From assembly GCA_947172415.1 (NCBI GenBank), contig OX359193.1, positions 1,792,501 to 1,856,500 of the forward strand: a DNA stretch of 64,000 nt, given 5' to 3'. This DNA is from Chondrosia reniformis. Taxonomy: Eukaryota > Porifera > Demospongiae > Chondrillida > Chondrillidae. Positions 6,620-44,316 of the stretch are shown in pieces; position 1 is the first letter of the stretch; each line of letters starts with the position of its first letter. The notes under the pieces are model-generated. The model searched no databases. It worked only from the letters and a program-made list of their open reading frames with translations, and had not been told where the DNA came from. Made by a program: the position numbers and the translations under genes.

Positions 6620-7067
6620 TACGAAATTGGCTTTCTTCTAGATGGACAGGAAAGAAGACATTTTTGTTGTTACGCAATAATCCAACTTTGATTTACAGCT
6701 ATTGGGAGTCCAAAATTACTTTCACAAATTTACTCTTAAAATTAAAAAATACTCAATGCACGTACACTTAGCCAAATTTAATTGCAAATTCATGAAAAAA
6801 AGCTATTTCTGTAGAGAAATTTCAAAATGATCAAAAATGCAAAAGCATTTTATAAATATTATGTAAATGCCTAATTAACAGTACAAAATAAACTCGTATT
6901 CCTACAAATATAATACTAAATAACAAATATTTGGTCCATAGTTCTCAAATCTACCCAACTAAGAAGATAATTTCTAGGCATTTCTCTCACCTGTCAGCCC
7001 GCCATATTACGACACGTGCAATTCGGATCTACCACTCGCAAATATACACGAAGAAAAACGTGAAAAC
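6620..7067. promoter_or_regulatory. Divergent intergenic region between SRCAP-like and RABGGTB
   Basis: Only 448 bp separate the two start codons on opposite strands, so both promoters must lie here. The part nearest RABGGTB is GC-richer (GTCAGCCCGCCATATTACGACACGTG around 6990-7020, shown here as adjoining short blocks CAGCCCGCCATATTAC and GACACGTG). No TATA box is obvious. Inference from gene layout only. Confidence 0.45.
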
Positions 7068-17163: not shown

Positions 17164-17654
17164 AATGAGGAATTGCAGAATTTGGCCTATTTCGGTTTAA
17201 CCACTTTGCGAAGGTTGTAGAGCATCGTAACATGTTTTGGCGTTTAGAAAAGCATGCAAAAACGACTGCAAACACACTAATGCAACCGAAAATCTGAACG
17301 TTGTTGATTTATGAGGTGTTAATTGATAATACATTGAATAGGGCGGCCATGTTTTTTTTCGGCCATCCCTACTTATAGAGTACTACCGTACTCTATGATA
17401 TATACCCATGGTGTCTGATCAAAGCCATACAACTGTTTAGTACACATGACCAGTGTTGTGGTCAGTGCATACTGTATTGCAATTTGCTCACATATAGTTC
17501 AAACACTGAAAAGTTTATGCCAACCGGCCATGGCTGGTTTCAGTGTGGACACAACCAATAAATTAATATAATTATGAAACTTAATTCTTAATTACTAGGC
17601 CCAGATCCCTTCTATATATTAAAAACTGAAGTTAAAAATAGAGATGGCAGGCCT

Positions 17655-17830
17655 GTAACAGTGACTGGCACACCTGAAAAATTAACAAAACAAGACAAGA
17701 CAATGATCACATGATAGGGCTAGCCATACAGAAGTAACATACAAATTTTAGGTAATTATTAACTTTATACAACACTCCCATGTTTGGGTATACATCGATA
17801 ACTTGATAGCTGAAGTAGGACTGATGTGTT
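17655..17830 (+). repeat. Dispersed repeat family R2, copy 3 (within unit II)
   Basis: Near-identical to copy 2 because it was duplicated with the surrounding unit. Confidence 0.6.
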
Positions 17831-18326
17831 TAAACACAGAAATAGTGTGCACGTGAATAAGTGTTGTGATTATGATGATAAGTTATTGAGTAAAACTAAC
17901 AGTATAGTCTACAACGTTTCTTCCCCTTATATAGGTCTTCCTCAGCAATACAATATTACCAGAGAGTACTGCTATATACTCTTTGAATGGTCTCACATAG
18001 CCAGACCACTTTTTTGCCTCCAGACTCACTTGGTGATGTCAGGCTACGAGAGACTGTAAACTCTTTGTATATGTACAGATTGTATATATTAAACAATTAT
18101 TGAATCCATATAACAGTACACTGAGGAAGTTACAAATACATCCTCAGTGTACATCAAAACAATATTTAAGTAAGTTTCACTATAAGAGGAAGTGAACCTT
18201 ATAGATATGACATCACAGTTCATTTAATTGGTAAAAGGTATATACATATAAATATATTACGCATGTATTTGTGGAAAGTAACAAGTACTTGCTTGTAATC
18301 TCTCTCTCTCTCTCTACTTTGTAAGG

Positions 18327-18374
18327 ATGAGCAAATCAGTAATATTTGTGATATGGATGGGAATTTGTGAATAA
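18327..18374 (+). pseudogene. Dead copy of the signal-peptide exon (unit II)
   Basis: Identical in reading to the unit I copy: MSKSVIFVIWMGICE then stop, no compatible donor. The shared break suggests units I and II duplicated after the exon had already decayed, or before and were homogenised. Confidence 0.7.
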
Positions 18375-18523: not shown

Positions 18524-19039
18524 GTGGTCAGATTATATATATGGGAAAATGAGCTCATGATATTTCCCTTTGAATTGTACACAATCAAGTGTACAACTAG
18601 AGGTATATAGATCTAGCACCCCAGTATCTGATAATTTCATTTTTACCCCAAAAATAAAATTTCATTTAATAATCTTCTATTGATTGCATTACATTTTCTT
18701 GTGCAAGACCTGCTAATATAACTATGAGGTCATGCATAGTGCTGGAAGTCAGACTAAATGTGAGCTCATGATGTTTCCCTTTGAACCTACATATATATCT
18801 GTACCCATGGTGTCTGATCAAAGCCATACAACTGTTTAGTACACATGACCAGTGTTGTGGTCAGTGCATACTGTATTGCAATTTGCTCACATATAGTTCA
18901 AACACTGAAAAGTTTATGCCAACCGGCCATGACTGGTTTCAGTGTGGACACACCAATAAATTAATATTATGAGAATTTTGCAGGCTTAATTATTAATTGC
19001 TATATAGGCCCAGATCCCTTCTATATATTGTTAAAAATA

Positions 19040-19459: not shown

Positions 19460-22400
19460 ATGAGCAGATCAGTAATATTTGTGATATGGATGGTAATGGG
19501 CTTGGCTGATATGGCGTTTGCCATGGATCAGGAGGTATACTAAATATCACAACATACAGCATGCATCAGTGTGCGCGTGTATTATTGGTATAGAGCAATC
19601 GACTTCAGAACTTATAAAACATAAACACGGTTACTAACTGCTCTGAGAGAATTGGCAATGCATGCAGAAAGACGGAACGAGCCATGCATGTACGGCGGAT
19701 TATATACTAGTGCAGTAGTGGGAGTTGAAAACTTAACTTGGCCTCCGGCTTTAAACTATATAGCTACTCGCTCTTTTATCGGCGGAAGCCGAAAAACAAA
19801 CTAACACTGTCCCCCTGTCGGACCAATGCGACGAATCCTCACCTTAATTAGCCTCTTGCATGAAGCTATTAATGTTGGCTTTACAAATCTCAGTTGATAA
19901 CCCATGCACATTATCGCGACGACAGCATCTTCAGTGGTAATCGTTTTTTGTTTATTTCATTCACTCCATCGATAAAGATCTGATTCCTATATGCAACCTG
20001 AAAGCGCAATTCATTGCTGAAGAAGACCTTTACGGGTTGAAACGTTTAAATCTCTGTTTCTCGAATATAAGTGTTGCCGATGCTCATGCGAACACATGCT
20101 CCCTATTGTTTCAAGCTGAATATACACAACAGCACGATCGCGTATACCTACACGGCTTCGCCTATAGCATAGGCCTGACTAAAAGGACGCGACCAACGCG
20201 ACGGACTGCATCTATATGGTCCGGCAAAGAATCTATACCCCACTTATCCCACCAATCTCGTGTTAAGTTATAATGTGTCACATGAAAGGATGATAGATAT
20301 ATAAGGTGCAGAATAGAGCTTTATAGGAATACACCATATCCTATTACAGCCTTAGAGACAGAAAGTATTGGATCCCAGCTAGATGGAGAGTTAGGATGAA
20401 AGTAGTGTTGTACTGACACAAGTTCTTAATCAGGCCAGATTCCTATTAGAAGAGTAATCAATTGCATTCTAACTAATAATATAAAGGGAGTGCATGGGTC
20501 TCTGCGATTAATAGCATATTTTGATAAGTGAAAGCTAGGAGATATCTACTGACTGTAAATATACAGTATTGCTATAGCATTTAGGCAAATGAAAGGAAAG
20601 TATAACTAACTAGATCAAAAACAGAGAAAATAGAAGCCTTATTTCTTAGATTAAGAGCAGAAGAGGGTAAATGGGCTAGATTAGAAGTGAACATCTATGT
20701 CACCGCTGTGAACTACAGAAATTAGAAGATATAGATAACAGTAATTTCAATCTTAGGTGTAGTGTGGAAAGATTAGTAATGAAAGGAGTACTTTTGTTGG
20801 GGTACTATAAGAAAGAAGTTTCCTGAATTTGACAGTAAACTAAAGCTGGTAGTGGCATTGACTGAGGCTTAATTGTAGGAGTATCAAAATCGGGTTTATA
20901 ATATGATTAAAAACGTGGAACAAATGGGACTAAACTGGATAATAACCCCATGGCTCCCTCCTCTGTATATATACTTAATTTATATTTGATATACGTATGT
21001 ATTATTAAATGTTACTTCCCTTATTACATTAACTGTATATATACGTCTACATAATCCACATAATATCACATGCAACCTTTAAAATCATCTTCCATCCATC
21101 ATTGCACTTGAACTATAATGCACCACCTCCGACCTCAGTGCTTGTGTATGTGACTGTCTGGGAAGTGCAGGCTGGTAGCCTTAAGTGGTGAGGGCTTCAT
21201 GCTCCCAGATAGTTGGGCTATGTACCTGGGCGGATGGCCTGATAGCATTAAGTGGCTATGGTTTAAATATGTTCAGGTATAGCCCTGTGCCCCTTAACCA
21301 GTACTGGTTAACATTTATCTACACCTCAACTGTATGTACGTATATCCATGGGAACCTTTAGCAATAATAATAATAATATATATACATATATATCAGCCGA
21401 ACAAATATTATATTTGTCATACATGCTGTGGCAATTGTATCTATAGCTCAGTGGCAGAGCAACTGGTGGTCATAACCAGCTGTCCTGGGTTCAATTCCCA
21501 GCAATTGCTTCTTTCATGTTTTTCCCTCCTATTGATGTTTGACTGATTATACTTGTGGTTTGATTATCACTTTGATTATTCATGCACATTTTACAAACAT
21601 TCTTCCTACCCTAACATAGAATTCGACAAACACAACTTCATCAGAGTTTACTGCTGCATTTAATGAATCAGTTACTTCATCTCCAGTACTAACAGAAGAA
21701 TGTTTAAGTGCTTATCAAGATCTTCAAGTGTCTGGTTGTTTTGGAAATGTTGATGTCTTTTCAGCTCTGACAGCGATGACTCGAGGAGCCAGCAATATGT
21801 CAGCCTTTCTTGATCTAGACTACGAGGAGTTGTTTGAGAACTTCTGTAGTCAGCCAATATGTACTGAGAAGTTGGTCTCTGCTACCAGAGTTTGTATCCC
21901 AAATAGTATTTCCTTAAGTTATGATGTGAGCTCACATAACACAATGATCTCTTTTTCACACACATTCATTCTCTCTCATTCCTCACTCCTTCCCACACAC
22001 ACCTACCTACCATGGCCACTTTCTCTCTATTTATGCAAAATGTATGGTTACATTAAATGACATTGATGTTCTTCCGTATCTAAAGATTGCGGAGTTTATG
22101 AGGAAAGCCATTGACACCGTATACTGTGCTAGAAATGATGATCAGTTCTGTGGAGCATCAATTATAGACAACATGGAGCTAGTGAGTTTCTTCAACTCAA
22201 TGTATGGGAACACAGTCAGAACTAAACTTGTATATATGCTACAATTTTTGGCGCACATATAATACATAGGACCCAGTTTAGTGTAAACACTATATACAAT
22301 ATGTACGTATGTCCTACTGAAGTAGTAGATGGTAATTTGCCTATTAGTTTAGTAGAAGTTATCATTACTATTTATCCACTTAATTAACAATGGTAACTTG

Positions 22401-25400
22401 TAATTAAATTGTATACATTTAATTGTGTATTCAGCTGCTGAATTCCACTGTATGTTCTATCTCATGTCAGCCAGAAGCTAAATGTATACAAGTAAGGATA
22501 CAGTGTACATATGATAGTGATTCTGTATGCGTACATTGTAATAGTTCTAGTGCTACATACATGTGTATATAGTGTTCGTTGGCTATTTATTTGCAATATT
22601 TTTCATAAGAGATATTATACGTACTTCATTGCAATACATGTGCATATATACAGTAGGCGTCAAATATATAAATGTTTCGTTCATTAAGAATAAGCCAGAA
22701 CGGTATACCGTTTTGTTTCGGCTTAGTCTTCAATTTGTCCCAAAGCGTTTTAAATCGTCCTTATTATAGGCCTACGAAATGAATAAAAACGATCAATCGT
22801 CTATTGCTTGCGTTCCAACGTAAGTTGTAAATTACTGTTAAACACGTGGATACTTGTTTAGCTTACTAGTGAAATACTTGGACAATTGTACTATAATTAA
22901 CACAAAGCATTTCTCACGTGCATGCGTTCCTACACAAGACTGTTCAGCATGCTTTAGAAAGTACAGATGATCGTTTTTCGAAGACAATCAATCGTTGTGT
23001 ATCGTCTCCACACAGTTTTCGTAGGAACAAAACGCTGTATAAACGAAACCAAACTTCAACTTTTTTTGATGTCTACTGTATGCATAACCAATTCTTTTAT
23101 AAGTTTGGGCATAGAAATGTGTATATTTCATGTGAATATTGACCTTAATGTATGTCTCATGCAGACAGCTGAAGAAATCCGTAATTCTTTTGGATGTTGC
23201 TATGTAAACTACATCAATCTTATTAATGAGCTTTATAAGCAGCTTAACATGTGAGTGTCTATGCTTTTATTTATATATTTATCAGTTATGTTCTATAGCA
23301 TCGACATCTTTTGCAAAATATAATACATATAGGCATGAGTGCATATTGTATATAATATTATGTATATATTTCGCTGATCTCTTTAATCATTCTTTGCAGC
23401 ACTGTTTCTTTAAATAATATTTTTGAAGAATGTTCTTCCACTCCATCTATTGGAGAATGTCCTCAGGATACAGCTAATGTAAGTAATAAATTCAAATTTC
23501 AATGTTATACTGTCACTATAATGGGGCATGATTCTGTATATACTATCGTATGTACATCTGACTATGAAGTTCACCTTAGTAATGTACAGATTTTACATAC
23601 AAATTTATGTATATCCTTCAGAATATGTATTCATTATATATATATATATATATATATAATTTTGTTCCTTTATTAAGACACTGGCCTACATGCAGACCAA
23701 AACATTCTAAAGTCGGGTTAAGACTGACTATCCTCTCTATATTGATCATTTCATTATCATAGCAAATGTTAGCACCCACCTTTCAACATTTCTTCCTAAT
23801 ATTTATCCTGTATAGAATTCCATAATCACACCTTCACCAGAGATTCCTACTTCATCTCCAATACTAACTGAAGAATGTTTAAGAGCTTATCAAGATCTTC
23901 AAGTGTCTGGTTGTTTTGGAAATGTTGATTACCTTTCAGCTCTGACAGCATTAACTCGAGGAGCCAGCAATATGTCAGCCTTTCTTGATCTAGACTACGA
24001 GGAGTTGTTTGAGAACTTCTGTAATCAGCCAATATGTACTGAGAAGTTGGTCTCTGCTACCAGAATTTGTATCCCAAATAATATTTCCTTAAGTTATGAT
24101 GTGAGCTCACATAACACAATGATCTCTCTTTCACACACATTCATTCTCTCTCATTCCTCACTCCTTCCCACACACACCTACCTACCATGGCCACTTTCTC
24201 TCTATTTATGCAAAATGTATGGTTACATTAAATGACATTGATGTTCTTCCGTATCTAAAGATTGCGGAGTTTATAAGGAAAGCCATTGACACCGTATACT
24301 GTGCTAGAAATGATGATCAGTTCTGTGGAGCATCAATTATAGACAACAGGGAGCTAGTGAGTTTCTTCAACTCAATGTATGGGAACACAGTCAGAACTAA
24401 ACTTGTATATATGCTACAATTTTTGGCGCACATATAATACATAGGACCCAGTTTAGTGTAAACACTATATACAATATGTACGTATGTCCTACTGAAGTAG
24501 TAGATGGTAATTTGCCTATTAGTTTAGTAGAAGTTATCATTACTATTTATCCACTTAATTAACAATGGTAACTTGTAATTAAATTGTATACATTTAATTG
24601 TGTATTCAGCTGCTGAATTCCACTGTATGTTCTATCTCATGTCAGCCAGAAGCTAAATGTATACAAGTAAGGATACAGTGTACATATGATAGTGATTCTG
24701 TATGCGTACATTGTAATAGTTCTAGTGCTACATACATGTGTATATAGTGTTCGTTGGCTATTTATTTGCAATACTTTTCATAAGAGATATTATACGTACT
24801 TCATTGCAATACATGTGCATATATACAGTAGGCGTCAAATATATAAATGTTTCGTTCATTAAGAATAAGCCAGAACGGCATACCGTTTTGTTTCGGCTTA
24901 GTCTTCAATTTGTCCCAAAGCGTTTTAAATCGTCCTTATTATAGGCCTACGAAATGAATAAAAACGATCAATCGTCTATTGCTTGCGTTCCAACGTAAGT
25001 TGTAAATTACTGTTAAACACGTGGATACTTGTTTAGCTTACTAGTGAAATACTTGGACAATTGTACTATAATTAACACAAAGCATTTCTCACGTGCATGC
25101 GTTCCTACACAAGACTGTTCAGCATGCTTTAGAAAGTACAGATGATCGTTTTTCGAAGACAATCAATCGTTGTGTATCGTCTCCACACAGTTTTTGTAGG
25201 AACAAAACGCTGTATAAACGAAACCAAACTTCAACTTTTTTTGATGTCTACTGTATGCATAACCAATTCTTTTATAAGTTTGGGCATAGAAATGTGTATA
25301 TTTCATGTGAATATTGACCTTAATGTATGTCTCATGCAGAGAGCTGAAGAAATCCGTAATTCTTTTGGATGTTGCTATGTAAACTACATCAATCTTATTA

Positions 25401-28400
25401 ATGAGCTTTATAAGCAGCTTAACATGTGAGTGTCTATGCTTTTATTTATATATTTATCAGTTATGTTCTATAGCATCGACATCTTTTGCAAAATATAATA
25501 CATATAGGCATGAGTGCATATTGTATATAATATTATGTATATATTTCGCTGATCTCTTTAATCATTCTTTGCAGCACTGTTTCTTTAAATAATATTTTTG
25601 AAGAATGTTCTTCCACTCCATCTATTGGAGAATGTCCTCAGGATACAGCTAATGTAAGTAATAAATTCAAATTTCAATGTTATACTGTCACTATAATGGG
25701 GCATGATTCTGTATATACTATCGTATGTACATCTGACTATGAAGTTCACCTTAGTAATGTACAGATTTTACATACAAATTTATGTATATCCTTCAGAATA
25801 TGTATTCATTATATATATATATATATATATAATTTTGTTCCTTTATTAAGACACTGGCCTACATGCAGACCAAAACATTCTAAAGTCGGGTTAAGACTGA
25901 CTATCCTCTCTATATTGATCATTTCATTATCATAGCAAATGTTAGCACCCACCTTTCAACATTTCTTCCTAATATTTATCCTGTATAGAATTCCATAATC
26001 ACACCTTCACCAGAGATTCCTACTTCATCTCCAATACTAACTGAAGAATGTTTAAGAGCTTATCAAGATCTTCAAGTGTCTGGTTGTTTTGGAAATGTTG
26101 ATTACCTTTCAGCTCTGACAGCATTAACTCGAGGAGCCAGCAATATGTCAGCCTTTCTTGATCTAGACTACGAGGAGTTGTTTGAGAACTTCTGTAATCA
26201 GCCAATATGTACTGAGAAGTTGGTCTCTGCTACCAGAATTTGTATCCCAAATAATATTTCCTTAAGTTATGATGTGAGCTCACATAACACAATGATCTCT
26301 CTTTCACACACATTCATTCTCTCTCATTCCTCACTCCTTCCCACACACACCTACCTACCATGGCCACTTTCTCTCTATTTATGCAAAATGTATGGTTACA
26401 TTAAATGACATTGATGTTCTTCCGTATCTAAAGATTGCGGAGTTTATAAGGAAAGCCATTGACACCGTATACTGTGCTAGAAATGATGATCAGTTCTGTG
26501 GAGCATCAATTATAGACAACAGGGAGCTAGTGAGTTTCTTCAACTCAATGTATGGGAACACAGTCAGAACTAAACTTGTATATATGCTACAATTTTTGGC
26601 GCACATATAATACATAGGACCCAGTTTAGTGTAAACACTATATACAATATGTACGTATGTCCTACTGAAGTAGTAGATGGTAATTTGCCTATTAGTTTAG
26701 TAGAAGTTATCATTACTATTTATCCACTTAATTAACAATGGTAACTTGTAATTAAATTGTATACATTTAATTGTGTATTCAGCTGCTGAATTCCACTGTA
26801 TGTTCTATCTCATGTCAGCCAGAAGCTAAATGTATACAAGTAAGGATACAGTGTACATATGATAGTGATTCTGTATGCGTACATTGTAATAGTTCTAGTG
26901 CTACATACATGTGTATATAGTGTTTGTTGGCTATTTATTTGCAATACTTTTCATAAGAGATATTATACGTACTTCATTGCAATACATGTGCATATATACA
27001 GTAGGCGTCAAATATATAAATGTTTCGTTCATTAAGAATAAGCCAGAACGGCATACCGTTTTGTTTCGGCTTAGTCTTCAATTTGTCCCAAAGCGTTTTA
27101 AATCGTCCTTATTATAGGCCTACGAAATGAATAAAAACGATCAATCGTCTATTGCTTGCGTTCCAACGTAAGTTGTAAATTACTGTTAAACACGTGGATA
27201 CTTGTTTAGCTTACTAGTGAAATACTTGGACAATTGTACTATAATTAACACAAAGCATTTCTCACGTGCATGCGTTCCTACACAAGACTGTTCAGCATGC
27301 TTTAGAAAGTACAGATGATCGTTTTTCGAAGACAATCAATCGTTGTGTATCGTCTCCACACAGTTTTCGTAGGAACAAAACGCTGTATAAACGAAACCAA
27401 ACTTCAACTTTTTTTGATGTCTACTGTATGCATAACCAATTCTTTTATAAGTTTGGGCATAGAAATGTGTATATTTCATGTGAATATTGACCTTAATGTA
27501 TGTCTCATGCAGACAGCTGAAGAAATCCGTAATTCTTTTGGATGTTGCTATGTAAACTACATCAATCTTATTAATGAGCTTTATAAGCAGCTTAACATGT
27601 GAGTGTCTATGCTTTTATTTATATATTTATCAGTTATGTTCTATAGCATCGACATCTTTTGCAAAATATAATACATATAGGCATGAGTGCATATTGTATA
27701 TAATATTATGTATATATTTCGCTGATCTCTTTAATCATTCTTTGCAGCACTGTTTCTTTAAATAATATTTTTGAAGAATGTTCTTCCACTCCATCTATTG
27801 GAGAATGTCCTCAGGATACAGCTAATGTAAGTAATAAATTCAAATTTCAATGTTATACTGTCACTATAATGGGGCATGATTCTGTATATACTATCGTATG
27901 TACATCTGACTATGAAGTTCACCTTAGTAATGTACAGATTTTACATACAAATTTATGTATATCCTTCAGAATATGTATTCATTATATATATATATATATA
28001 TATATAATTTTGTTCCTTTATTAAGACACTGGCCTACATGCAGACCAAAACATTCTAAAGTCGGGTTAAGACTGACTATCCTCTCTATATTGATCATTTC
28101 ATTATCATAGCAAATGTTAGCACCCACCTTTCAACATTTCTTCCTAATATTTATCCTGTATAGAATTCCATAATCACACCTTCACCAGAGATTCCTACTT
28201 CATCTCCAATACTAACTGAAGAATGTTTAAGAGCTTATCAAGATCTTCAAGTGTCTGGTTGTTTTGGAAATGTTGATTACCTTTCAGCTCTGACAGCATT
28301 AACTCGAGGAGCCAGCAATATGTCAGCCTTTCTTGATCTAGACTACGAGGAGTTGTTTGAGAACTTCTGTAATCAGCCAATATGTACTGAGAAGTTGGTC

Positions 28401-31400
28401 TCTGCTACCAGAATTTGTATCCCAAATAATATTTCCTTAAGTTATGATGTGAGCTCACATAACACAATGATCTCTCTTTCACACACATTCATTCTCTCTC
28501 ATTCCTCACTCCTTCCCACACACACCTACCTACCATGGCCACTTTCTCTCTATTTATGCAAAATGTATGGTTACATTAAATGACATTGATGTTCTTCCGT
28601 ATCTAAAGATTGCGGAGTTTATAAGGAAAGCCATTGACACCGTATACTGTGCTAGAAATGATGATCAGTTCTGTGGAGCATCAATTATAGACAACAGGGA
28701 GCTAGTGAGTTTCTTCAACTCAATGTATGGGAACACAGTCAGAACTAAACTTGTATATATGCTACAATTTTTGGCGCACATATAATACATAGGACCCAGT
28801 TTAGTGTAAACACTATATACAATATGTACGTATGTCCTACTGAAGTAGTAGATGGTAATTTGCCTATTAGTTTAGTAGAAGTTATCATTACTATTTATCC
28901 ACTTAATTAACAATGGTAACTTGTAATTAAATTGTATACATTTAATTGTGTATTCAGCTGCTGAATTCCACTGTATGTTCTATCTCATGTCAGCCAGAAG
29001 CTAAATGTATACAAGTAAGGATACAGTGTACATATGATAGTAATTCGCATCTATATACGTACATGTAATAGTTCTAGTGCTACCATACATTATACGTGTA
29101 TATTCTCATTCTCTCTCTTCCTCACTCACAATTTCTCTCTTACTGTACTCCCACCCCAAATCTCTCTCTCTCTCTCTCTCTCTCATTCCTCACTCCTTCT
29201 CACACTCACCTACCTGCCATGGCCACTTTCTCTCTATTTATGCAAAACATATGGTTACATTAAATGACATTGATGTACTTACCTATCTAAAGATTGCGGA
29301 GTTTTCATTTAACCCTATTTATTTGCAATACTTTTATAAGAGATATTATATGTACTTCATTGCAACACTTATGCATATGTATGCATATCCAATTCTTTTA
29401 TAAGTTTGGGCATAGAAAATAAGAAATGTGCATGTATATTTCATGTGAACGTTGACCTTATTGTATCTAAATATATGTCTCATGCAGACAGCTGAAGAAA
29501 TCCGTAACTCTTTCGGATGTTGCTATGTAAACTACATCAATCTTATTAATGAGTTTTATAAGGAGCTTAACATGTAAGTCTATATGCTTATATATATTTA
29601 TGAGTTATGTTCTATAGCATTGATATCTTTGCAAAATATAATACATACATATAGGCATGAGTGCCTATTGTATATAATATTATGTATGTATTTCTCTGAT
29701 CTCTTTGATCATTCTTTGCAGCACTGTTTCTTTAAACAATATTTTTGAAGAATGTTCTTCCATTCCATCTATTGGAGAATGTCCTCAGGATACAGCTAAT
29801 GTAAGTAATAAATGCAATCTCAATGTTACACTCTCACTGTAACTAGGCATGATTCTGTATATATACTACATATGTATATCTGACTTTAAAGTACTTTATT
29901 AAGACACTTGCCTACATGCAGATCAAAACATTAATCTAAAGTCTGGTTAGGACTGACTATATCTCATATAGATCATTTTATTATCATAGCAAATGATATA
30001 CACACACCTTTCAACATTTCTTCGAATTCCTAATATTTATCCTATATAGAATTCCACTATCACACCTTTACCAGAGATTCCTACGATACTAACTGAAGAA
30101 TGTTTAAGAGCTTTTCAAGATCTTCAAGTGTCTGGTTGTTTTGGAAATGTTGATGTCTCTTCAGCTCTGACAGCATTAACTCGAGGAGCCAGCAATATGT
30201 CAGCCTTTCTTGATGTAGACTACGAGGAGTTGTTTGAGAGCTTCTGTAGTCAGCCAATCTGTACTGAGAAGATGGTCTCTGCTACCAGACTTTGTATCCC
30301 GAATAGTATTTCCTTAAGTTTTGATGTGAGCTTACATAACACAATGATCTCTCTTTCACATACACTCATTCTCTCCCTTTCTCACTCACAATTTCTCTCT
30401 TACTTTACTCCCACTCCATATATAAATCTCATTCCTCACTCTTTCTCACACACACCTACCTACCATGGCCACTTTCTCTCTGTTTATGCAAAATGTATGG
30501 TTACATTATTAAATAACATTGATGTACTTACCTATCTAAAGATTGCCGAGTTGACAAGGAAAACCGTTGACACCCTATACTGTGCTAGAAATGATGATCA
30601 GTTCTGTGGAGCATTACTTATAGACAACATGGAGCTAGTGAGTTTCTTCAACTCAATGTATGGCAACAGAGTTGTTTCAGAAACCTGTATGCTACAATCT
30701 TTGGTGCACATATAATATATAGGACCCTGTTTAGTGCAAACAGTATATATGTCCTACTGAAATCGTGTAGTAGATGGTAATTACTCCTGTTAGTTTAGTA
30801 GAAGTAATCATTACTATGTACCCACTTAATTAACAATGAAAACTTGTAATTTAATTGTATACATTTAATTGTGTATACAGCTGCAGAATTCCACTGTATG
30901 TTCTATCTCGTGTCAGCCAGAAGCTCAATGTATACAAGTAAGGAAGTAACTATATACAGTGCACATACAGTTGAGCCCGCTTAAGATGAACTCACTTAAG
31001 GTGAAATTTCGATTTAAATGAAATTTTTCACAGTCCAGATTTTGCCGTATACATTCCAATAGTTAGCGCTTCGGTTAGTGCAAAAAAAATTTTTGTACAT
31101 TTTCGGATAAGGTGAAATTTTATCGAAGAATCTGTAAATGGCTATAAGCAAGAATACACTTTCTCTTTAAGATAAGAAAGAAATTATTAAAGCTTTGAAC
31201 GAGGGCGCTGGTCAATCTGGAATAAAGACGGCAATAGCAAAAATGTTTTGGATAGGAAACTCTATCATATCAGCTATCATTAATAATCGTACAAGGATTA
31301 TCAGCACTTACAAGCAGTCTATATTTGAGTCTTCTAGAAAATGATTGCGGTTGAGAACATCCACGTACAACGACATAGAGGAAGCGCTCCTGATCTGGCT

Positions 31401-34400
31401 ATTAGTACACTTTATACTTTTGTACTTATCTTATATGCATTTTGTATATTACAGGTATGAAAATTATGATTTCTGTTAAGATGAAATTTCTGTTAAGACG
31501 AAATTTTTTAGTGGTCCCAGCCATTTCATCTTAAAACCGGGTTCAACTGTATATTCGCATCTCAAATGTAATATTACTATTATACATGTGTATGTAGTAT
31601 ACATATCCAATTCTTTATATCTAAATATATGTCTCATGCAGACAGCTGAAGAAATCCGTAATTCTTTTGGATGTTGCTATGTAAACTACATCAATCTTAT
31701 GAATGACGTATTTAATGATCTCAACATGTAAGTGTTAAATGTATGTATACAGTTAATACATATATAGACCTTTATCATTCATGTTCTTTCACATTGAAAT
31801 CGTTAGCAAAATATATAAGTATTTTTTGTACTGTATTATATACATAAACGTACGTATGCATGCATGCTTATCGTATGTAATATTATGTATCATATATTTC
31901 TCCTGCAGTACTGTTTCTTTAAATAATATTTTTGAAGAATGTTCTTCCATTCCATCTATTGGAGAATGTCCTCAGGATACAGCTAATGTAAGTAATAAAT
32001 GCAATCTCAATGTTACACTCTCACTGTAACTAGGCATGATTCTGTATATATACTACATACGTATATCTGACTTTAAAGTACTTTATTAAGACACTTGCCT
32101 ACATGCAGATCAAAACATTAATCTAAAGTCTGGTTAGGACTGACTATATCTCATATAGATCATTTTATTATCATAGCAAATGATATACACACACCTTTCA
32201 ACATTTCTTCGAATTCCTAATATTTATCCTATATAGAATTCCACTATCACACCTTCACCAGAGATTCCTACGATACTAACTGAAGAATGTTTAAGAGCTT
32301 TTCAAGATCTTCAAGTGTCTGGTTGTTTTGGAAATGTTGATGTCTCTTCAGCTCTGACAGCATTAACTCGAGGAGCCAGCATTATATCAGCCTTTCTTGA
32401 TCTAGACTACGAGGAGTTGTTTAAGGGCTTCTGTAGTCAGCCAATCTGTACTGAGAAGTTGGTCTCTGCTACCAGACTTTGTATCCCGAATAGTATTTCC
32501 TTAAGTTTTGATGTGAGCTTACATAACACAATGATCTCTCTTTCACACACACTCATTCTCTCTTTTCCTCACTCACAATTTCTCTCTTACTTTACTCCCA
32601 CTCCATATATAAATCTCATTCCTCACTCCTTCTCACACACACCTACCTACCATGGCCACTTTCTCTCTGTTTATGCAAAATGTGTGGTTACATTATTAAA
32701 TAACATTGATGTACTTACCTATCTAAAGATTGCCGAGTTGGCAAGGAAAACCGTTGACACCCTATACTGTGCTAGAAATGATGATCAGTTCTGTGGAGCA
32801 TTACTTATAGACAACGTGGAGCTAGTGAGTTTCTTTAACTCAATGTATGGCAACAGAGTTGTTTCAGAAACCTGTATGCTACAATCTTTGGTGCAGATAT
32901 AATATATAGGACCCTGTTTAGTGCAAACAGTATATATGTCCTACTGAAATCTTGTAGTAGATGATAATTACTCCTGTTAGTTTAGTAGAAGTAATCATTA
33001 CTATGTACCCACTTAATTAACAATGAAAACTTGTAATTAAATTGTATACATTTAATTGTGTATACAGCTGCAGAATTCCACTGCATGTTCTATCTCGTGT
33101 CAGCCAGAAGCTCAATGTATACAAGTAAGGAAGTAACTATATACAGTGCACATACAGTTGAGCCCGCTTAAGATGAACTCACTTAAGGTGAAATTTCGAT
33201 TTAAATGAAATTTTTCACAGTCCAGATTTTGCCGTATACATTCCAATAGTTAGCACTTCGGTGAGTGCAAAAAAATTTTTTGTACATTTTCGGATAAGGT
33301 GAAATTTTATCGAAGAATCTGTAAATGGCTATAAGCAAGAATACACTTTCTCTTTAAGATAAGAAAGAAATTATTAAAGCTTTGAACGAGGGCGCTGGTC
33401 AATCTGGAATAAAGACGGCAATAGCAAAAACGTTTTGGGATAGGAAACTCTATCATATCAGCTATCATTAATAATCGTACAAGGATTATCAGCACTTACA
33501 AGCAGTCTATATTTGAATCTTCTAGAAAATGATTGCGGTTGAGAACATCCACGTACAACGACATAGAGGAAGCGCTCCTGATCTGGCTATTAGTACACTT
33601 TATACTTTTGTACTTATCTTATATGCATTTTGTATATTACAGGTATGAAAATTATGATTTCTGTTAAGATGAAATTTCTGTTAAGACGAAATTTTTTAGT
33701 GGTCCCAGCCATTTCATCTTAAAACCGGGTTCAACTGTATATTCGCATCTCAAATGTAATATTACTATTATACATGTGTATGTAGTATACATATCCAATT
33801 CTTTATATCTAAGTATATGTCTCATGCAGACAGCTGAAGAAATCCGTAATTCTTTTGGATGTTGCTATGTAAACTACATCAATCTTATGAATGACGTATT
33901 TAATGATCTCAACATGTAAGTGTTAAATGTATGTATACAGTTAATACATATATAGACCTTTATCATTCATGTTCTTTCACATTGAAATCGTTAGCAAAAT
34001 ATATAAGTATTTTTTGTACTGTATTATATACATAAACGTACGTATGCATGCATGCTTATCGTATGTAATATTATGTATCATATATTTCTCCTGCAGTACT
34101 GTTTCTTTAAATAATATTTTTGAAGAATGTTCTTCCATTCCATCTATTGGAGAATGTCCTCAGGATACAGCTAATGTAAGTAATGTATGCAAATGCCTTC
34201 AAATCTCAATGTTAAGCTGTCACTGTAATTAATGGGGCAGAAATAAAAAAATTATCAATAGGTATAATATAAAGTACACCTTAGTGATGAGCATATTTTA
34301 TATACAAAATTTGTATATAAAATATGCTCATCACTAATGTGAAATATGAAATTTATGTATGCAAGCATTTCAAAATAGTAATTTTGTTGCCTTGTATTAA

Positions 34401-34873
34401 GACATCTGCATGGTGTCTTTTTGTTGAGACTGCATGGTGTCTTTTTGTTGAGACTGCATGGTTGAGACTGCATGGTGTCTTCTTGTTGAGATTGCATGGT
34501 GTCTTCTTGCATGGTGTCTTACTGTTGAGACTGCATGGTGTCTTCTTGTTGAGACTGCATGGTGTCTTCTTGTTAAGACTGCATGGTGTCTTTTTGTTGA
34601 GACTGCATGGTGTCTTCTTGTTAAGACTGCATGGTGTCTTCTTCTTGAGACTGCATGCATGTTGTACTACACATGATTCAAACATTCCCTGAAGTATATA
34701 TAATACATTTGATATGTGTGTTATTTTTCTTTTATTTCTCTATAATACGTATATGTATATTATATATATTACATATATATACGTAGGTATCTTCGAATGT
34801 GAGACAAAAGGCTTCCACTGGAATGTTAGTCACACTCATTCTGTTTATCATAATGAACATGGTACTGCTCTAA
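19460..34873 (+). CDS. Predicted GPI-anchored extracellular protein with six tandem Cys-rich cassettes (novel family)
   Basis: Predicted cell-surface protein of about 1260 residues; function and family not recognised. Exon 1 (19460-19534) is a signal peptide (MSRSVIFVIWMVMGLADMAF..). Then six cassettes of exons A-E follow: A1 21620-21925, B1 22086-22181, C1 22435-22491, D1 23165-23250, E1 23400-23478; A2 23816, A3 25989, A4 28164, A5 30050, A6 32237 start the others, ending with E6 34097-34175. Exon 34787-34873 encodes VSSNVRQKASTGM then a hydrophobic LVTLILFIIMNMVLL to the stop, a classic GPI signal. Cassettes are 208, 201, 201, 201, 198 and 198 residues, each with 14 Cys (..EEC, SGCFGNVD, NFCNQPIC, YCARNDDQFC, VCSISCQPEAKC, GCCYVNY, EEC..GEC) and several N-x-S/T sites. 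Introns are phase 0 except D/E, so whole cassettes can be gained or skipped in frame. All acceptors and donors are canonical. A direct exon 1 to A1 joint over a 2.1-kb intron is inferred. Confidence 0.8.
20010..20050 (+). other. Hammerhead-like motif
   Basis: CTGAAGA (20017-20023), a GACC/GGGTT hairpin, GAAAC (20039-20043), then GTT. The order box-stem-GAAAC-NUH is that of a hammerhead core. Stem I is weak. Located in intron 1 of the GPI-protein gene. Confidence 0.4.
20300..20890 (+). mobile_element. Possible retroelement 3' remnant
   Basis: Broken frames give fragments such as LFLRLRAEEGKWARL, LCHRCELQKLEDID and ..RCSVERLVMKG, reminiscent of the Cys-rich tail after reverse transcriptase in some LINEs. 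No full domain, many stops. Tentative. Confidence 0.22.
21431..21508 (+). pseudogene. tRNA-like element (tRNA-derived)
   Basis: D-arm TAGCTCAGTGGCAGAGCA (A box), anticodon-arm-like CTGGTGGTCATAACCAG, T-arm CTGGGTTCAATTCCCAG (B box) and a 7-bp terminal pairing GCAATTG/CAATTGC. About six extra bases (TCTATA) separate the acceptor strand from the D-arm, and the base before TCA/CAT in the loop does not fit a clean anticodon, so it is a tRNA-derived repeat or a pseudogene. The same ends appear in the copy at 3543-3601. In intron 1 of the GPI-protein gene. Confidence 0.6.
21620..30049 (+). repeat. Type-1 cassettes 1-4 of the GPI-protein gene (exons plus introns)
   Basis: Genomic units of about 2.17-2.20 kb starting at 21620, 23816, 25989 and 28164. 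Units 2, 3 and 4 are almost identical through exons and introns up to exon C; differences are mostly in (AT)n length. Unit 1 differs more, with a longer Ser/Thr-rich N-terminal segment. The C-D intron is 673 bp in units 1-3 but 473 bp in unit 4, which switches to type-2 sequence there. Confidence 0.93.
30968..31549 (+). mobile_element. Tigger/pogo-like non-autonomous DNA element, copy 1
   Basis: 582 bp with termini CAGTTGAGCCCGCTTAAGAT and ATCTTAAAACCGGGTTCAACTG, flanked by TA on both sides. The interior holds a short frame DKKEIIKALNEGAGQSG..TAIAKMF, similar to the CENP-B/psq-type N-terminal helix-turn-helix of pogo transposases, so it is an internally deleted transposon. In the C5-D5 intron. 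Confidence 0.75.
33155..33737 (+). mobile_element. Tigger/pogo-like non-autonomous DNA element, copy 2
   Basis: Same element at the same relative place in cassette 6, with TA flanks and a handful of substitutions. It is a copy made by segmental duplication, not by a second insertion. Confidence 0.75.
34281..34337. repeat. Perfect 57-nt palindrome
   Basis: Arms 34281-34308 and 34310-34337 (TTAGTGATGAGCATATTTTA.. and its exact complement) around a single base. In the last intron of the GPI-protein gene. Confidence 0.93.
34406..34658. repeat. 24-bp minisatellite
   Basis: About ten units of GACTGCATGGTGTCTTCTTG + TTGA, some truncated. Several frames are open on both strands because the unit is a multiple of three; these frames are not genes. 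Last intron of the GPI-protein gene. Confidence 0.93.
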
Positions 34874-39000: not shown

Positions 39001-42000
39001 AGTGGCATAGTGAATTTTAAGTGACTTAACCATGCACATCACTTCTGTGTTTAGGCACATCATCCCCACTTCAGCTATCATTGTGTGCCCAAACATAGAG
39101 AGTGAGGGATAGACATTATATATACAGTACATATGCATATACGAATGTATTGTACTCCCCTGCTGATTTAGCTGGCTCAAATAAATCAAACTTGTAACTT
39201 TGCTTAAACAGTAATTATTATTAGTGATGGTGGATTGACATAGCTTGTAAGGAACTCTGTTTATAACTGCAGTCAAATGCAATGACTGTTATAGGCTGCC
39301 TATGTACAACTGCTTTATGTAAAGACACTGTAGGTTTAACACTTAGGTGTAGCCATAGTATTGACATAATTATGATTGATTGGTATATAGCAGGTCGCTG
39401 AACAATAGCTTTTGTTGTAATACCTACCTACGTACATTAGAGTTGATTGAGTTGAAAGAGGAAAGTCTTTCGAAAGTACTCAAATGAATCGCAGGTCTTA
39501 TAAATGCATTGGATATTTATCATGAATTCAACAAACACACCTTAACACTTTAAGTACTACATACATTTATGAATAAAAGTTAATTGCCCTGAGCCATGCA
39601 AATGCTATGATAAACAAAAGCCAAGTTTAAAGACTTCGGTCACTGGGCTGGTTTGGTGTAATATATACTTACCAGTGATTATTTTGCTTACATACATTCT
39701 TATACATATTGCATTAACATATATAGGAATAATGAACTGACCTATAGTGTTAATTGCATTTAACATCTTGCCTTCAGTTTCATGTGTATCACTAACTGTA
39801 TATGGAAGGGATTCGAAACTTGTATGTCATGTTAAGTGTTCACAAAAGAAGGAATATAACTTTAATAAAAGCTAGCTAACACAGAAAGATAAAGTTGTTC
39901 TATTTGGCTAGAGCTAGTATACGTAGAAACTGTGCATAAATAAGTAGCCTATATACGTACATACGTACCTTGTATAGGAAAATTCTGTTTAAGAGAGTTA
40001 TTAGACAAGTTGCTGTCTGCACGATTTGGACCTATATACATGTATATACAAGGACATACATGACACCATAAACACATATGTATGTATGTATATCATTATG
40101 GAATATATACTCTATTAGGATTGCAAAAAATAAAAACATAAAAGACAAAACTTTAAATATACACGAAACACAATGGCTAGCCTGTTATACAGAGCAGAAT
40201 TGGTTGAGAAGAAGAGTAAAAAGGCTACCAAATGAAAGCAAAATGAGGGAAAAGACCAAAATTTAGAGATTTCAAAGAAGCATTGTCACTGATTATTTTG
40301 TGTACTAGTATAGAGAGTCTATGACATTTTAATTATTAAAGTCTCTAACTTACTAACTAAATTAAGCAACATGCCACCCTTTCTAATCTGCCAACCTCAC
40401 TAATCTGCCAACCTCACTAATCTGCCAACCTCACTAATCTGTCAACCTCATTAATCTGCCAACCTCACTAATCCGCCAACCTCACTAATCCGCCAACCTC
40501 ACTAATCCGCCAACCTCACTAATCCGCCAATCTCACTAATCCTCCAACCTCACTAATCCATCAACCTCACTAATCCGCCAACCTCATTAATCTGCTAACC
40601 TTACTAATCCATCAACCTCACTAATCCACCAACCTCGCTAATCCACCAATCCCACTAATTTGCCAACCTCACTAATCCGCCAACCTCACTAATCCGCCAA
40701 CCTCACTAATCCGTCAACCTCACTAATCTGTCAACCTCACTAATCTGCCAACCTCACTAATCCGTCAACCTCACAAATCCGCCAACCTCACTAATACGCC
40801 AACCTCATTAATCCATCAACCTCACTAATCCACCAACCTCACTAATCTGTCAACCTCACTAATCCACCAACCTCACTAATCCACCAACCTCACTAATCCG
40901 TCAACCTCACTAATCTGCCAACCTCACTAATCCGTCAACCTCACTAATCTGCCAACCTCACTAATCTACCAACCTCATTAATCTGCCAACCTCACTAATC
41001 CACCAACCTCACTAATCCACCAACCTTGCTAATCCACCAATCCCACTAATTCACCATATTTTCCCCCAAACTAATTGTGGTGGATTGTTGAGGTGATACT
41101 ATGTACAGTTGTGTAATAATTAAGTGATCAGGTCAGTTACACATTGCTTTCATTCTATAGCATGTCAGAGAACTTGATAACTAGTTCAATATCTGGTAAA
41201 GGTTGTTAGGGAAATAATTATCTACAATGATATTAGCTTCAACCACCCCAAATGTTATATATTATTACTGGCTAAACTAACTCTGACCTTGTGGTCCATT
41301 TTTTCCTGAAACATCATCTTCTGCAACTAAAGGATCTGTCTCTACAAGTATATTAAGAAGATAAACTATATATATCACAATCATCATACAAAATCACTTA
41401 GCTAATGGTGACTATACCTTCAGAAGGGACAATTGGATTTCCTGAATTAAACTTTCTAGTTCCTGAAGTTACTGTGGCTATTAAATGACATCATACACCA
41501 TAAAATGTCACATGACAGAGGAAGAGGGTCCACACAATGTATGTACACATGTAATAATGCACTACCTAACCATGTTGGAATGCATAGCTTTCATGATAGT
41601 AGCTTTCATGTAAGATTACAGTTCCTACAAAATATTGTAATATGTACATGGATAATATCCATCGAATACTGCAAGGGTTCACATCATTTTTACCTCCAAA
41701 AGTTTTAAAGTGGTTATCCCTCACCAAACCAAAATTCAGTTCATTCAAAACTTCATAAAGTACTATAGGTGTTGCTTGATGTCCTTTCTTGCTTCTCCAT
41801 TTCAAGAATGCTGCATTCAACCGTTCATAATCATTCTCTTCGTCTTTAATTTTGTTAATGTCATCTTCTGATAGTTTCAATTCTCTAGCAATTTTTTTCC
41901 ATTCCTTTTGAAGGTCAGACTCATTAGCAATCCTGTGTAGAGCTAGGTTGGGCACTGAAATCCTGCATGCTAGGTATACAATGCAAGTACATCTACAAAT

Positions 42001-42368
42001 CTTTAGTATGAAATTAATAAGTTTTTGTTGATGGAGAGCTCAAGTTCAATTTCATCATAAACACAAAAAACTTGATAGTATGCAAGCACTTAATTTCAAC
42101 AGATCATCTACAGTAAGTGTATTATCATCATCTGGATCTGAACTTACCTGGTATTTCCTGATAGTGCTGACGCCTTTCAAAAGTTGCAAAACCTACAAAG
42201 ACAGACTTGTTAGAAGAATAAACGTGTACTAATAAGCACTTGTATACAAATTTGCCTCTGAATTAAATGCTGCAACAGCTCATTGTACTGACCTGCTTCA
42301 GATTGCCCTCTTGGCTGCTGCTCCGGTACCGATGTCATTACAGTAGATCTGCCTCCTCCATATACCAT
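36053..42368 (-). CDS. Death domain + CARD-like + degenerate trypsin-like protein
   Basis: Predicted 618-residue intracellular signalling protein. Thirteen exons: 42368-42293, 42192-42148, 41954-41694, 41477-41418, 41341-41288, 40031-39969, 39795-39742, 38797-38483, 38322-38221, 37753-37588, 37264-36973, 36656-36479, 36243-36053; all phases join, 1857 nt with stop. Residues about 41-127 form a Death domain (LHRIANESDLQKEWKKIARE, LKLSEDDINKIKDEE, AAFLKWRSKKG). Residues about 210-308 look CARD-like (IVIHLHNKGVISGDEMADIQ, LMLLAEALKEE). Residues about 400-618 resemble a trypsin-like fold: GCAFFM, MITCSEIL where a protease has TxxHxL, and GTPGSPIF with the nucleophile-type Ser followed by YQLIGVHFS. 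Glu replaces the expected His, so catalysis is doubtful. Acidic Ser-rich linkers (SEECSEISKSEADTNFEED) lie between. Domain names are by eye; the trypsin-like call is the least certain. Confidence 0.72.
36362..36420 (+). mobile_element. Dispersed repeat family R1, copy 2 (5' fragment)
   Basis: GGACTCACAGAAGATCAAGA through GATTCCCAGGGTCATTGATG; only the first 55-60 bp of the element. In intron 12 of the Death-domain gene. Confidence 0.65.
37414..37563. repeat. 18-bp minisatellite, GTGAGGTTGG orientation
   Basis: About eight imperfect units of GATTAGTGAGGTTGGTAG. It is the reverse complement of the larger array at 40376-41056 in another intron of the same gene (intron 10 here, intron 5 there). 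Confidence 0.9.
38915..39080 (+). repeat. Dispersed repeat family R2, copy 5
   Basis: GGGATGGCAGTGCTGAAACA, GAAAATGTAATGAAACAAGA, GTGATCATGTGATAAGG, AGAAGTGGCATAGTGAATTT, CACTTCTGTGTTTAGGCA. In intron 7 of the Death-domain gene. Confidence 0.6.
40376..41056. repeat. 18-bp minisatellite, CCAACCTCACTAAT orientation, about 38 copies
   Basis: Unit CCAACCTCACTAATCYRY with variable last bases (CCGC, CTGC, CCAC, TCGT). Occupies much of intron 5 of the Death-domain gene. Not a CRISPR: there are no unique spacers. Confidence 0.96.
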
Positions 42369-43699: not shown

Positions 43700-44218
43700 C
43701 TATCCAGCCAATTTCATGCTATTGATGTTACGCATTGCAAAACCCAAGGCATCAATTTCCCAACCTTTACGTCCAAATATACCAGCACAAAAGCCCGACC
43801 CAACTGGGAACTCAATTTCACCCAGTAAAGCATCCTTTTTTTCTACAACAGCTTCAATGTGTCTGCCGGATTCCATATCAATTACCACACCGCCTAAGAG
43901 TGGGTTATCATATGCCGGGGACCGACTTGGACTAAGAGTAATCTTTTTAAAAACCTCTTTTCTTGAAAAATTGAATTTAGCTACAAATTTGTGATCCCTA
44001 GAGTGAAGCGGTCTGCCAAATCGTTCTAATTTCCCGTCACTTAGCTTCAGTTCAATGGCTTGAATTCGATCTGTTTGTAGAAAGAATTCAATTTCTTGAA
44101 GATATACAGCTCCTTCCCCTATACATGAGAATTGGTCACCACCTGATCCCCCAATAGCTAGATTGCTGGAAAACTCGTTTGGATTAACAGCTAAGCATTT
44201 CTGCCGATGAGCCGCCAT
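43700..44218 (-). CDS. Jacalin-like lectin domain protein, intronless
   Basis: A single open frame of 172 residues starting in a good context (AAAATGGCG). The fold pattern matches jacalin-related lectins: IGGSGGDQFS near the N-terminus, alternating beta-strand hydrophobics (VYLQEIEFFLQTDRIQAIEL), a GVVIDMESGRHIEAVV turn, and the C-terminal GIFGRKGWEIDALGFAM, which corresponds to the GxxGxxxDxIG strand of the family. Such proteins bind sugars; the specificity cannot be read here. No signal peptide or membrane segment, so probably cytosolic or nuclear. It is the only clear intronless gene in a window where all others are split, which could mean a retrocopy or simply a short gene. Confidence 0.65.
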   Translation of the reverse strand: MAAHRQKCLAVNPNEFSSNLAIGGSGGDQFSCIGEGAVYLQEIEFFLQTDRIQAIELKLSDGKLERFGRPLHSRDHKFVAKFNFSRKEVFKKITLSPSRSPAYDNPLLGGVVIDMESGRHIEAVVEKKDALLGEIEFPVGSGFCAGIFGRKGWEIDALGFAMRNINSMKLAG

Positions 44219-44316
44219 TTTTATTGTAAACCGCTCGGTGCCGAAAACGATGAATTATGCGTGTACAAAAATGGCTGCCACATGCAAGTATTAGTTAAAA
44301 CCTATATTGTCTCATT
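44219..44316. promoter_or_regulatory. 98-bp bidirectional promoter region (jacalin-like / INO80E)
   Basis: The start codons of the two divergent genes are only 98 bp apart, so transcription initiation for both and both 5' UTRs must share this stretch (CCGCTCGGTGCCGAAAACGA, AAAATGGCTGCCACATG). No TATA box seen. Confidence 0.6.

Follow-up and report, generated by a model that had tools for sequence, protein, structure and literature searches.

Examination of a 64,000-nucleotide (nt) stretch of chromosome 5 of the sponge Chondrosia reniformis (here called the window; positions below count along its full length) reveals a 32-exon gene on the forward strand (19460-34873) that encodes six copies of a cysteine-rich module, each specified by a five-exon cassette. 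The sequence itself shows how the gene is built, the family to which its module belongs, the mosaic history of its duplications and the constraint on its frame and cysteines. In light of these features we propose, with evenly balanced confidence, that a surface module was multiplied by unequal crossing-over into a multivalent protein, probably bearing a glycosylphosphatidylinositol (GPI) anchor, that would serve in adhesion or recognition. The product would be a secreted, GPI-anchored ectodomain in which Ser/Thr/Pro-rich linkers connect six copies of a ~200-residue, 14-cysteine module, forming a multivalent rod that would show repeated binding faces at the cell surface, perhaps to recognise other cells, the matrix or microbes. 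Whole modules would be added or removed by unequal crossing-over between the units, which are 1.9-2.2 kb long, and since the cassettes start and end in phase 0, such gains and losses would leave the reading frame intact. The surface anchoring, disulphides, multivalency and recognition role are properties that we infer.

The gene model was built from a repeat search, reading frames and splice borders. The original prediction of one signal-peptide (SP) exon, six five-exon cassettes (A-E) with matching phases and one tail exon was recovered in full and in that order (Table 1): the joined frame of 3,783 coding nt (1,260 amino acids, aa) is open over all 1,260 codons to the terminal stop. All 31 introns of the model are of the GT-AG type, the junction phases are 0/0/0/2/0 per cassette (only D/E being phase 2), the exon borders read AG...GT in six of six cassettes, and the window sequence is free of any N. 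Each cassette codes for 198-208 residues with 14 cysteines, giving a protein total of 84, and coding identity among the window cassettes is 91.6-99.8%. The cysteine spacing (11-35-4-10-23-7-16-3-5-12-0-27-8) is identical in cassettes 1, 3 and 5, the three listed. The linkers, counted from the last cysteine of one cassette to the first cysteine of the following one, span 23-26 residues, of which 43-50% are Ser, Thr or Pro. A structure prediction for exon A alone returned helices only (mean pLDDT 61.3, pTM 0.51, alignment of 4 sequences), a low-confidence model from which the module might be guessed to have helical content.

Hydropathy of the window protein peaks at its two ends (2.79 over the best 11 residues at the N-terminus and 2.89 at the C-terminus, with an internal maximum of 1.38), and in the three paralogues described below the C-terminal values are 2.35-2.65. 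By inspection and rule of thumb, the N-terminus combines a hydrophobic core with an A-x-A cleavage motif (AFA/MDQE), as in a signal peptide. By a similar rule, the C-terminus has a small-residue omega region, a polar spacer, a hydrophobic end and no cytoplasmic tail (...TANVSSNVRQKASTG-MLVTLILFIIMNMVLL), as in a GPI-type signal. Thus, both ends proposed earlier for a surface protein are present, the GPI attachment itself being an extrapolation from them; from these sequence features the window protein is probably GPI-anchored at the cell surface.

Searches of the same genome (117,379,552 bases in 15 contigs), with a cassette, a paralogue cassette, the tails and the signal peptide as queries, returned four SP exons and four tail exons, one of each per gene. 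The window gene is therefore one of a family of at least four genes, these counts being lower bounds since a decayed SP copy (18301-18364) escaped the SP-peptide search. The other three genes lie on chromosome 7; in the odChoReni1.1 assembly chromosomes 5 and 7 measure 8.80 Mb and 8.46 Mb, according to PMC12181767. Each of these paralogues has a single cassette in the layout SP-A-B-C-D-E-tail, with D/E in phase 2, no stop, 14 cysteines and, by eye, AG/GT splice borders. Cassette identity to the window gene is 80% for paralogue 1 (compared with cassette 5) and 26-27% for paralogues 2 and 3. Over seven aligned cassettes 13 cysteine columns are invariant, the spacing in paralogue 2 being 11-26-4-10-29-7-16-9-3-12-0-28-7. 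The SP peptide of paralogue 1 is identical to that of the window gene and those of paralogues 2 and 3 are 65% identical to it over 20 aa, while the tail exon is 56% identical in the most diverged comparison. Against 2,000 shuffles each, the SP, cassette 1 exon A and tail of the window gene match paralogue 2 with z-scores of 9.7, 15.3 and 12.9; in this paralogue, the sole diverged one so tested, DNA similarity to the window survives only near these three elements.

The intron between SP and exon A is 89 nt in paralogue 2 and 86 nt in paralogue 3, versus 2,085 nt in the window gene, and this closeness of SP to exon A supports the joint between the SP exon and the first cassette. Furthermore, paralogue 2 and paralogue 3 differ in length by a multiple of 3 in each exon, as do cassette 6 and paralogue 1, while of the 16 indels in the introns of the paralogue 2-3 pair, 10 have a length not divisible by 3. 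The repetition of layout and phases at three other loci places the structure of the window gene beyond chance. In cassettes 5 and 6 (30050-30715 and 32237-32902) the 216-nt A-B intron is itself open in frame, giving a 221-aa frame that spans A, the intron and B; in cassettes 1-4 this intron measures 160 nt, and in paralogue 1 215 nt, so this open frame is probably due to chance. A 24-bp minisatellite (TGCATGGTGTCTTCTTGTTGAGAC-like) occupies 34400-34660 in the intron between exon E of cassette 6 (E6) and the tail, and paralogue 1 has a related array at the equivalent position (L029:7104-7331).

The cassettes form a mosaic. In the unit-wide alignment, 3 substitutions and a single 2-nt indel separate cassettes 2 and 3 over the whole unit. 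Cassette 4 is a chimera of two cassette types: it has no differences from cassette 3 from exon A through C and then switches, with a different and shorter C-D intron, and its intron leading from E to the next A differs from that of cassette 5 at 1 of 249 sites. The earlier claim that cassettes 2-4 are nearly identical even in their introns thus stands for 2 and 3, and for cassette 4 applies to its A-C half but fails beyond it. Cassettes 5 and 6 are a pair, as had been predicted, with 10 coding substitutions between them and a longer C-D intron holding a common insertion, which is probably older than their duplication given that both share it. These insertions (30960-31560 and 33147-33740) have inverted ends (cagttgagcccgctt...aaaccgggttcaactg), and a stretch within them resembles, by eye, what we take to be the N-terminal part of a pogo/Tigger-type transposase.

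Cassette 1 differs from cassette 3 at 19 of 285 sites of exon A and by a 21-nt in-frame insert, and is strongly diverged upstream of that exon; past exon A only 6 sites differ (A-B intron 1, exon B 2, C-D intron 3). For this pair, intron divergence is 0.0025 versus a nonsynonymous divergence (dN) of 0.038, with 21 of 603 exon sites but 4 of 1,572 intron sites changed. Because the excess falls almost wholly in exon A beside the diverged upstream flank, we read it as a recombination breakpoint, and selection was set aside as its cause on the same grounds. Upstream of the gene, 17398-17553 duplicates 18797-18952 in the repeat search; together with the decayed SP exon this makes up a second, degenerate 5' end (promoter side and SP exon, 17398-18364), indicating that this end of the gene was duplicated too. 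A mosaic of cassette types is the pattern expected from unequal crossing-over between units. The one-cassette paralogues suggest that the six cassettes grew from one by in-phase duplication, and the near-identity of cassettes within this one assembly suggests that copy number may be changing at present.

Comparisons of cassette coding sequence and of introns in masked alignments point to two levels of constraint. The counts of silent and replacement changes are 0/10 for cassettes 5-6, 0/1 for 2-3, 3.5/17.5 for 1-3, 3/3 for 3-4, 12.2/47.8 for cassette 3 and paralogue 1, and 1/19 for paralogues 2-3, whose tails add two silent changes by eye. Intron divergence against dN is 0.015 (0.013 if the final intron, which aligns poorly, is omitted) versus 0.022 for cassettes 5-6, 0.042 versus 0.040 for paralogues 2-3, and 0.079 versus 0.119 and 0.095 versus 0.112 for cassettes 6 and 5, respectively, with paralogue 1. 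The cassette 1-3 pair aside, replacement change amounts to about 0.6-1.7 times intron divergence, and the residues other than cysteine appear to be only weakly constrained.

The reading frame and the cysteines, on the other hand, are conserved under constraint. Stops are absent and 14 cysteines present in all nine cassettes (six in the window, three in the paralogues). In a neutral simulation of four pairs (112 substitutions; 111 observed), 3.4-4.6 stops and 5.6-6.1 lost cysteines were expected where none of either is observed, and none of the 5,000 runs made for each of three kappa values lacked both. That some 112 substitutions brought no stop and no lost cysteine argues against a pseudogene. 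The dN/dS of 0.25-0.35 in comparisons with paralogues 2 and 3 points in the same direction, although silent sites are saturated there. A scaffold of fixed cysteines whose other residues are loosely constrained is compatible with a binding module.

Sequence and structure searches returned no relative that would identify the module. Five Pfam queries were used (a cassette, the three paralogues, and a 434-aa stretch joining SP to two cassettes; E up to 10, with HMMER filters dropping most matches above ~0.1), and none of the five had a family above cut-off. Peptidase_G2 was the best weak match for the cassette, the two-cassette query and paralogue 1, and was rejected as below cut-off every time; paralogues 2 and 3 lacked even weak matches. 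Nothing among PDB sequences matched the cassette singly or by profile, and a Foldseek search of the low-confidence exon A model against PDB gave a meaningless best E of 5.4. A cassette, a family profile and an exon A profile found no characterised relative among 5.8 billion proteins, in collections that seem poor in sponge proteins, and two-pattern scans of prokaryotic and viral contigs gave 79 and 67 pattern matches with no relatives.

The protein searches returned two sequences. P0001 is a reading frame of cassette 6 itself. P0002 (72 aa, on a 938-base ENA contig, 5 member sequences) matches the peptide of exon A in paralogues 2 and 3 at 53 of 61 and 52 of 61 positions (85-87% identity; L032:4292-4543 and L030:5025-5276, both on the minus strand), with differences around KEIN. 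As it continues into sequence like the start of the paralogue 3 intron, it is probably sponge genomic DNA, and may represent another allele, a paralogue or a related sponge's copy. Among the matches listed, the literature on sponge GPI and cassette families (titles and abstract openings, with few subscription journals) held no description of this family. The view that the cassette carries no known domain was thus borne out by Pfam, PDB sequence and profile, the 5.8-billion-protein search and the exon A fold search; within the searches made, the module and the four-gene family are undescribed, though the kind of molecule is already known.

VERL, the abalone vitelline envelope receptor for lysin, is a ZP-type egg-coat protein without a GPI anchor. 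Its array size differed between two individuals, and its 22 repeats of ~453 bp adjoin without introns (PMC2704960), whereas the window gene has five-exon cassettes of an unrelated 14-cysteine module. As for the VERL-like trait of inner repeats being more alike than outer ones, the near identity of cassettes 2 and 3 and the divergence of cassette 1 in exon A agree with it, but cassette 4 is chimeric and the 5/6 pair includes the last cassette. Sponge aggregation factors contain Calx-beta, VWD and Wreath domains, and neither Calx-beta nor VWD was found in the 434-aa query (SP and two of the six cassettes) at Pfam E up to 10. These factors, to which the proposed role of the window protein may be likened, are polymorphic and are linked to cell adhesion that is specific to the species (as cited in PMC5450542). 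Chondrosin, from the same species, is a secreted protein of 199 aa including the signal peptide, and hence near one cassette in length, that was salted out of extract; according to PMC7459819 its cleavage site is AEA/SK, versus AFA/MDQE (by inspection) in the window protein, and it was set aside on that ground.

Several observations weigh against our proposal or loosen its support. An adhesion or recognition role, although the likeliest, is argued by analogy with repeat proteins such as VERL, and gene and protein are predicted from genomic sequence. In older pairs dN is below intron divergence (0.109 < 0.162 for cassette 3 and paralogue 1, 0.077 < 0.125 for cassettes 1-5, and 0.072 < 0.125 for 3-5), and no consistent sign of positive selection runs across the compared pairs. 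Five pairs pooled have 16.7 synonymous changes against 22.4-24.7 expected (P 0.07-0.03 depending on kappa); three of them share cassette 3, they differ among themselves, and the 3-4 pair (3 silent of 6) was excluded for its chimerism. A test on cassettes 5-6 and paralogues 2-3, two pairs chosen after inspection, gave P 0.003-0.008. With regard to the suggested glycosylation, the whole protein has 31 sequons versus 17.1 expected (P 0.0006), but the cassettes are copies of one another, and tested singly none of the six window cassettes is enriched (P 0.10-0.47). One of the 14 cysteines in paralogues 2 and 3 falls in another alignment column than in the window cassettes. Between paralogue 2 and cassette 1, exons C (z 0.7) and E (z 0.1) match at chance level, similarity being moderate for B (z 5.1) and weak for D (z 2.2). 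In paralogue 2, C and E were assigned by position, phase and cysteines, and the exon C acceptor in paralogues 2 and 3 was picked to keep the frame, the nearer AG running into a stop (by eye). Finally, the C-terminal end may be a short transmembrane segment without a cytoplasmic tail.

The alternative that survives best, albeit still somewhat unlikely, is a structural role, in which the protein would be an anchor or spacer tying cells to the dense collagenous matrix and repeat number would set length or strength rather than specificity. The near-identical cassettes 2 and 3 would suit such mechanical or multivalent use, and replacement change at 0.6-0.7 of intron divergence in the older pairs suggests partial constraint; but the Pfam queries found no matrix-binding domain, and replacement as fast as silent or intron change in cassettes 5-6, paralogues 2-3 and cassettes 5 or 6 versus paralogue 1 is loose for a structural repeat.

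We regard it as unlikely that the C-terminus is other than a GPI signal, the protein being either a tail-less transmembrane protein or one released through read-through of E6, which would add an 18-residue extension (VSNVCKCLQISMLSCHCN) and a stop. Paralogue 1 has this stop at the corresponding position, and an AATAAA lies downstream at 34242. However, E6 retains a GTAAGT donor, two cysteines of the extension are serines in paralogue 1, and the tail exon occurs once per gene in all four genes and is at least 56% identical among them.

An equally improbable reading takes the cassette as a very diverged member of a known cysteine-rich helical family, such as the GDNF-receptor/GAS1, glypican or folate-receptor types, which the GPI-like end, the 14 cysteines and the tentatively helical exon A bring to mind. 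The GFR-alpha/GAS1 receptors are GPI-anchored ectodomains of repeated cysteine-rich helical domains, with ~10 cysteines per domain rather than 14. Glypicans are GPI-anchored, helical and glycosylated, with 14 conserved cysteines and heparan sulphate sites, but are formed by one ~450-aa domain and not by six ~200-residue modules. Neither the GDNF/GAS1 domain nor the glypican model, nor the folate-receptor type, was among the Pfam matches of the five queries at E up to 10, and the empty PDB profile search and the Foldseek result, with nothing below E 5.4, likewise speak against such a relationship.

A more specific version of the recognition proposal, which we put forward as a long shot, is that the protein is a lineage-restricted determinant of allorecognition or symbiont recognition built on a new disulphide-rich module; in-phase five-exon cassettes would be gained, lost and recombined between individuals, with array length and module mosaic carrying individual identity. 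Least credible of all is a pseudogene or assembly artefact, i.e. a non-functional or over-expanded repeat array: dN/dS values close to or exceeding 1 among several recent copies, the decayed 5'-end copy, and ~2.2-kb units of up to 99.8% coding identity that are hard to count without spanning reads would favor it, but it is opposed by the stop-free nine cassettes with 14 cysteines each, the intact splice borders of the window gene and the AG/GT borders of the paralogues, a cassette 4 that is chimeric with its own scar and no mere copy, and an N-free window in a PacBio-based assembly with a quality value (QV) of 69.8 (PMC12181767).

Table 1. Exons of the six-cassette gene, associated features of the window, and the paralogues on chromosome 7 (chr7)
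Feature	Position	Strand	Basis
SP exon, phase 0 out: signal peptide MSRSVIFVIWMVMGLADMAFA followed by MDQE	19460..19534	+	reading frame and splice border
Cassette 1 exon A	21620..21925	+	joined gene model
Cassette 1 exon B	22086..22181	+	joined gene model
Cassette 1 exon C	22435..22491	+	joined gene model
Cassette 1 exon D	23165..23250	+	joined gene model
Cassette 1 exon E	23400..23478	+	joined gene model
Cassette 2 exon A	23816..24100	+	joined gene model
Cassette 2 exon B	24261..24356	+	joined gene model
Cassette 2 exon C	24610..24666	+	joined gene model
Cassette 2 exon D	25340..25425	+	joined gene model
Cassette 2 exon E	25575..25653	+	joined gene model
Cassette 3 exon A	25989..26273	+	joined gene model
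Cassette 3 exon B	26434..26529	+	joined gene model
Cassette 3 exon C	26783..26839	+	joined gene model
Cassette 3 exon D	27513..27598	+	joined gene model
Cassette 3 exon E	27748..27826	+	joined gene model
Cassette 4 exon A	28164..28448	+	joined gene model
Cassette 4 exon B	28609..28704	+	joined gene model
Cassette 4 exon C, end of the cassette-3-like half	28958..29014	+	joined gene model, unit-wide alignment
Likely recombination scar in cassette 4 C-D intron: extra A-B intron end and exon B start, 94% to cassette 1 copy	29177..29304	+	repeat search (family D7), extra B acceptor at 29287
Cassette 4 exon D	29488..29573	+	joined gene model
Cassette 4 exon E	29722..29800	+	joined gene model
Cassette 5 exon A	30050..30325	+	joined gene model
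Cassette 5 exon B	30542..30637	+	joined gene model
Cassette 5 exon C	30881..30937	+	joined gene model
Cassette 5 exon D	31642..31727	+	joined gene model
Cassette 5 exon E	31909..31987	+	joined gene model
Cassette 6 exon A	32237..32512	+	joined gene model
Cassette 6 exon B	32729..32824	+	joined gene model
Cassette 6 exon C	33068..33124	+	joined gene model
Cassette 6 exon D	33830..33915	+	joined gene model
Cassette 6 exon E	34097..34175	+	joined gene model
Tail exon: VSSNVRQKASTGMLVTLILFIIMNMVLL then TAA stop (polar spacer and hydrophobic C-terminus, GPI-signal-like)	34787..34873	+	joined gene model, hydropathy
Decayed SP-exon copy, stop after 15 codons	18301..18364	+	repeat search, translation
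Paralogue 1	chr7 6164440-6169530	+	genome search
Paralogue 3, tandem with paralogue 2	chr7 7796194-7793331	-	genome search
Paralogue 2, tandem with paralogue 3	chr7 7789930-7787270	-	genome search

Intron 1 of the gene holds a tRNA-like sequence (21437-21509; 36.4 bits in Rfam, no call by ARAGORN) and repeats with dozens of genomic matches elsewhere (~20000-20086 and 20277-20460). To the right of the gene, on the reverse strand, 41569-42039 and 43703-44254 encode, ~1.7 kb apart, a Death domain and a jacalin-like lectin domain (Pfam 6.7e-11 and 6.2e-06, respectively). At the left end of the window, also in reverse orientation, 52-573 and 5432-6637 code for a SNF2-related domain and for an HSA domain with a weak EP400_N match, apparently from a chromatin remodeller of the EP400/SWR1 type.

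To our knowledge, few of the molecules are established by which sponges discriminate between self and non-self or select their microbes. The genes described here offer a concrete family of four in a genome assembled to chromosome level; their module found no match in Pfam or among PDB sequences in these searches, and their layout would permit module number to change without harm to the frame. Our proposal makes the testable prediction that C. reniformis individuals would differ in cassette number and mosaic, and that the protein would be found at the cell surface.

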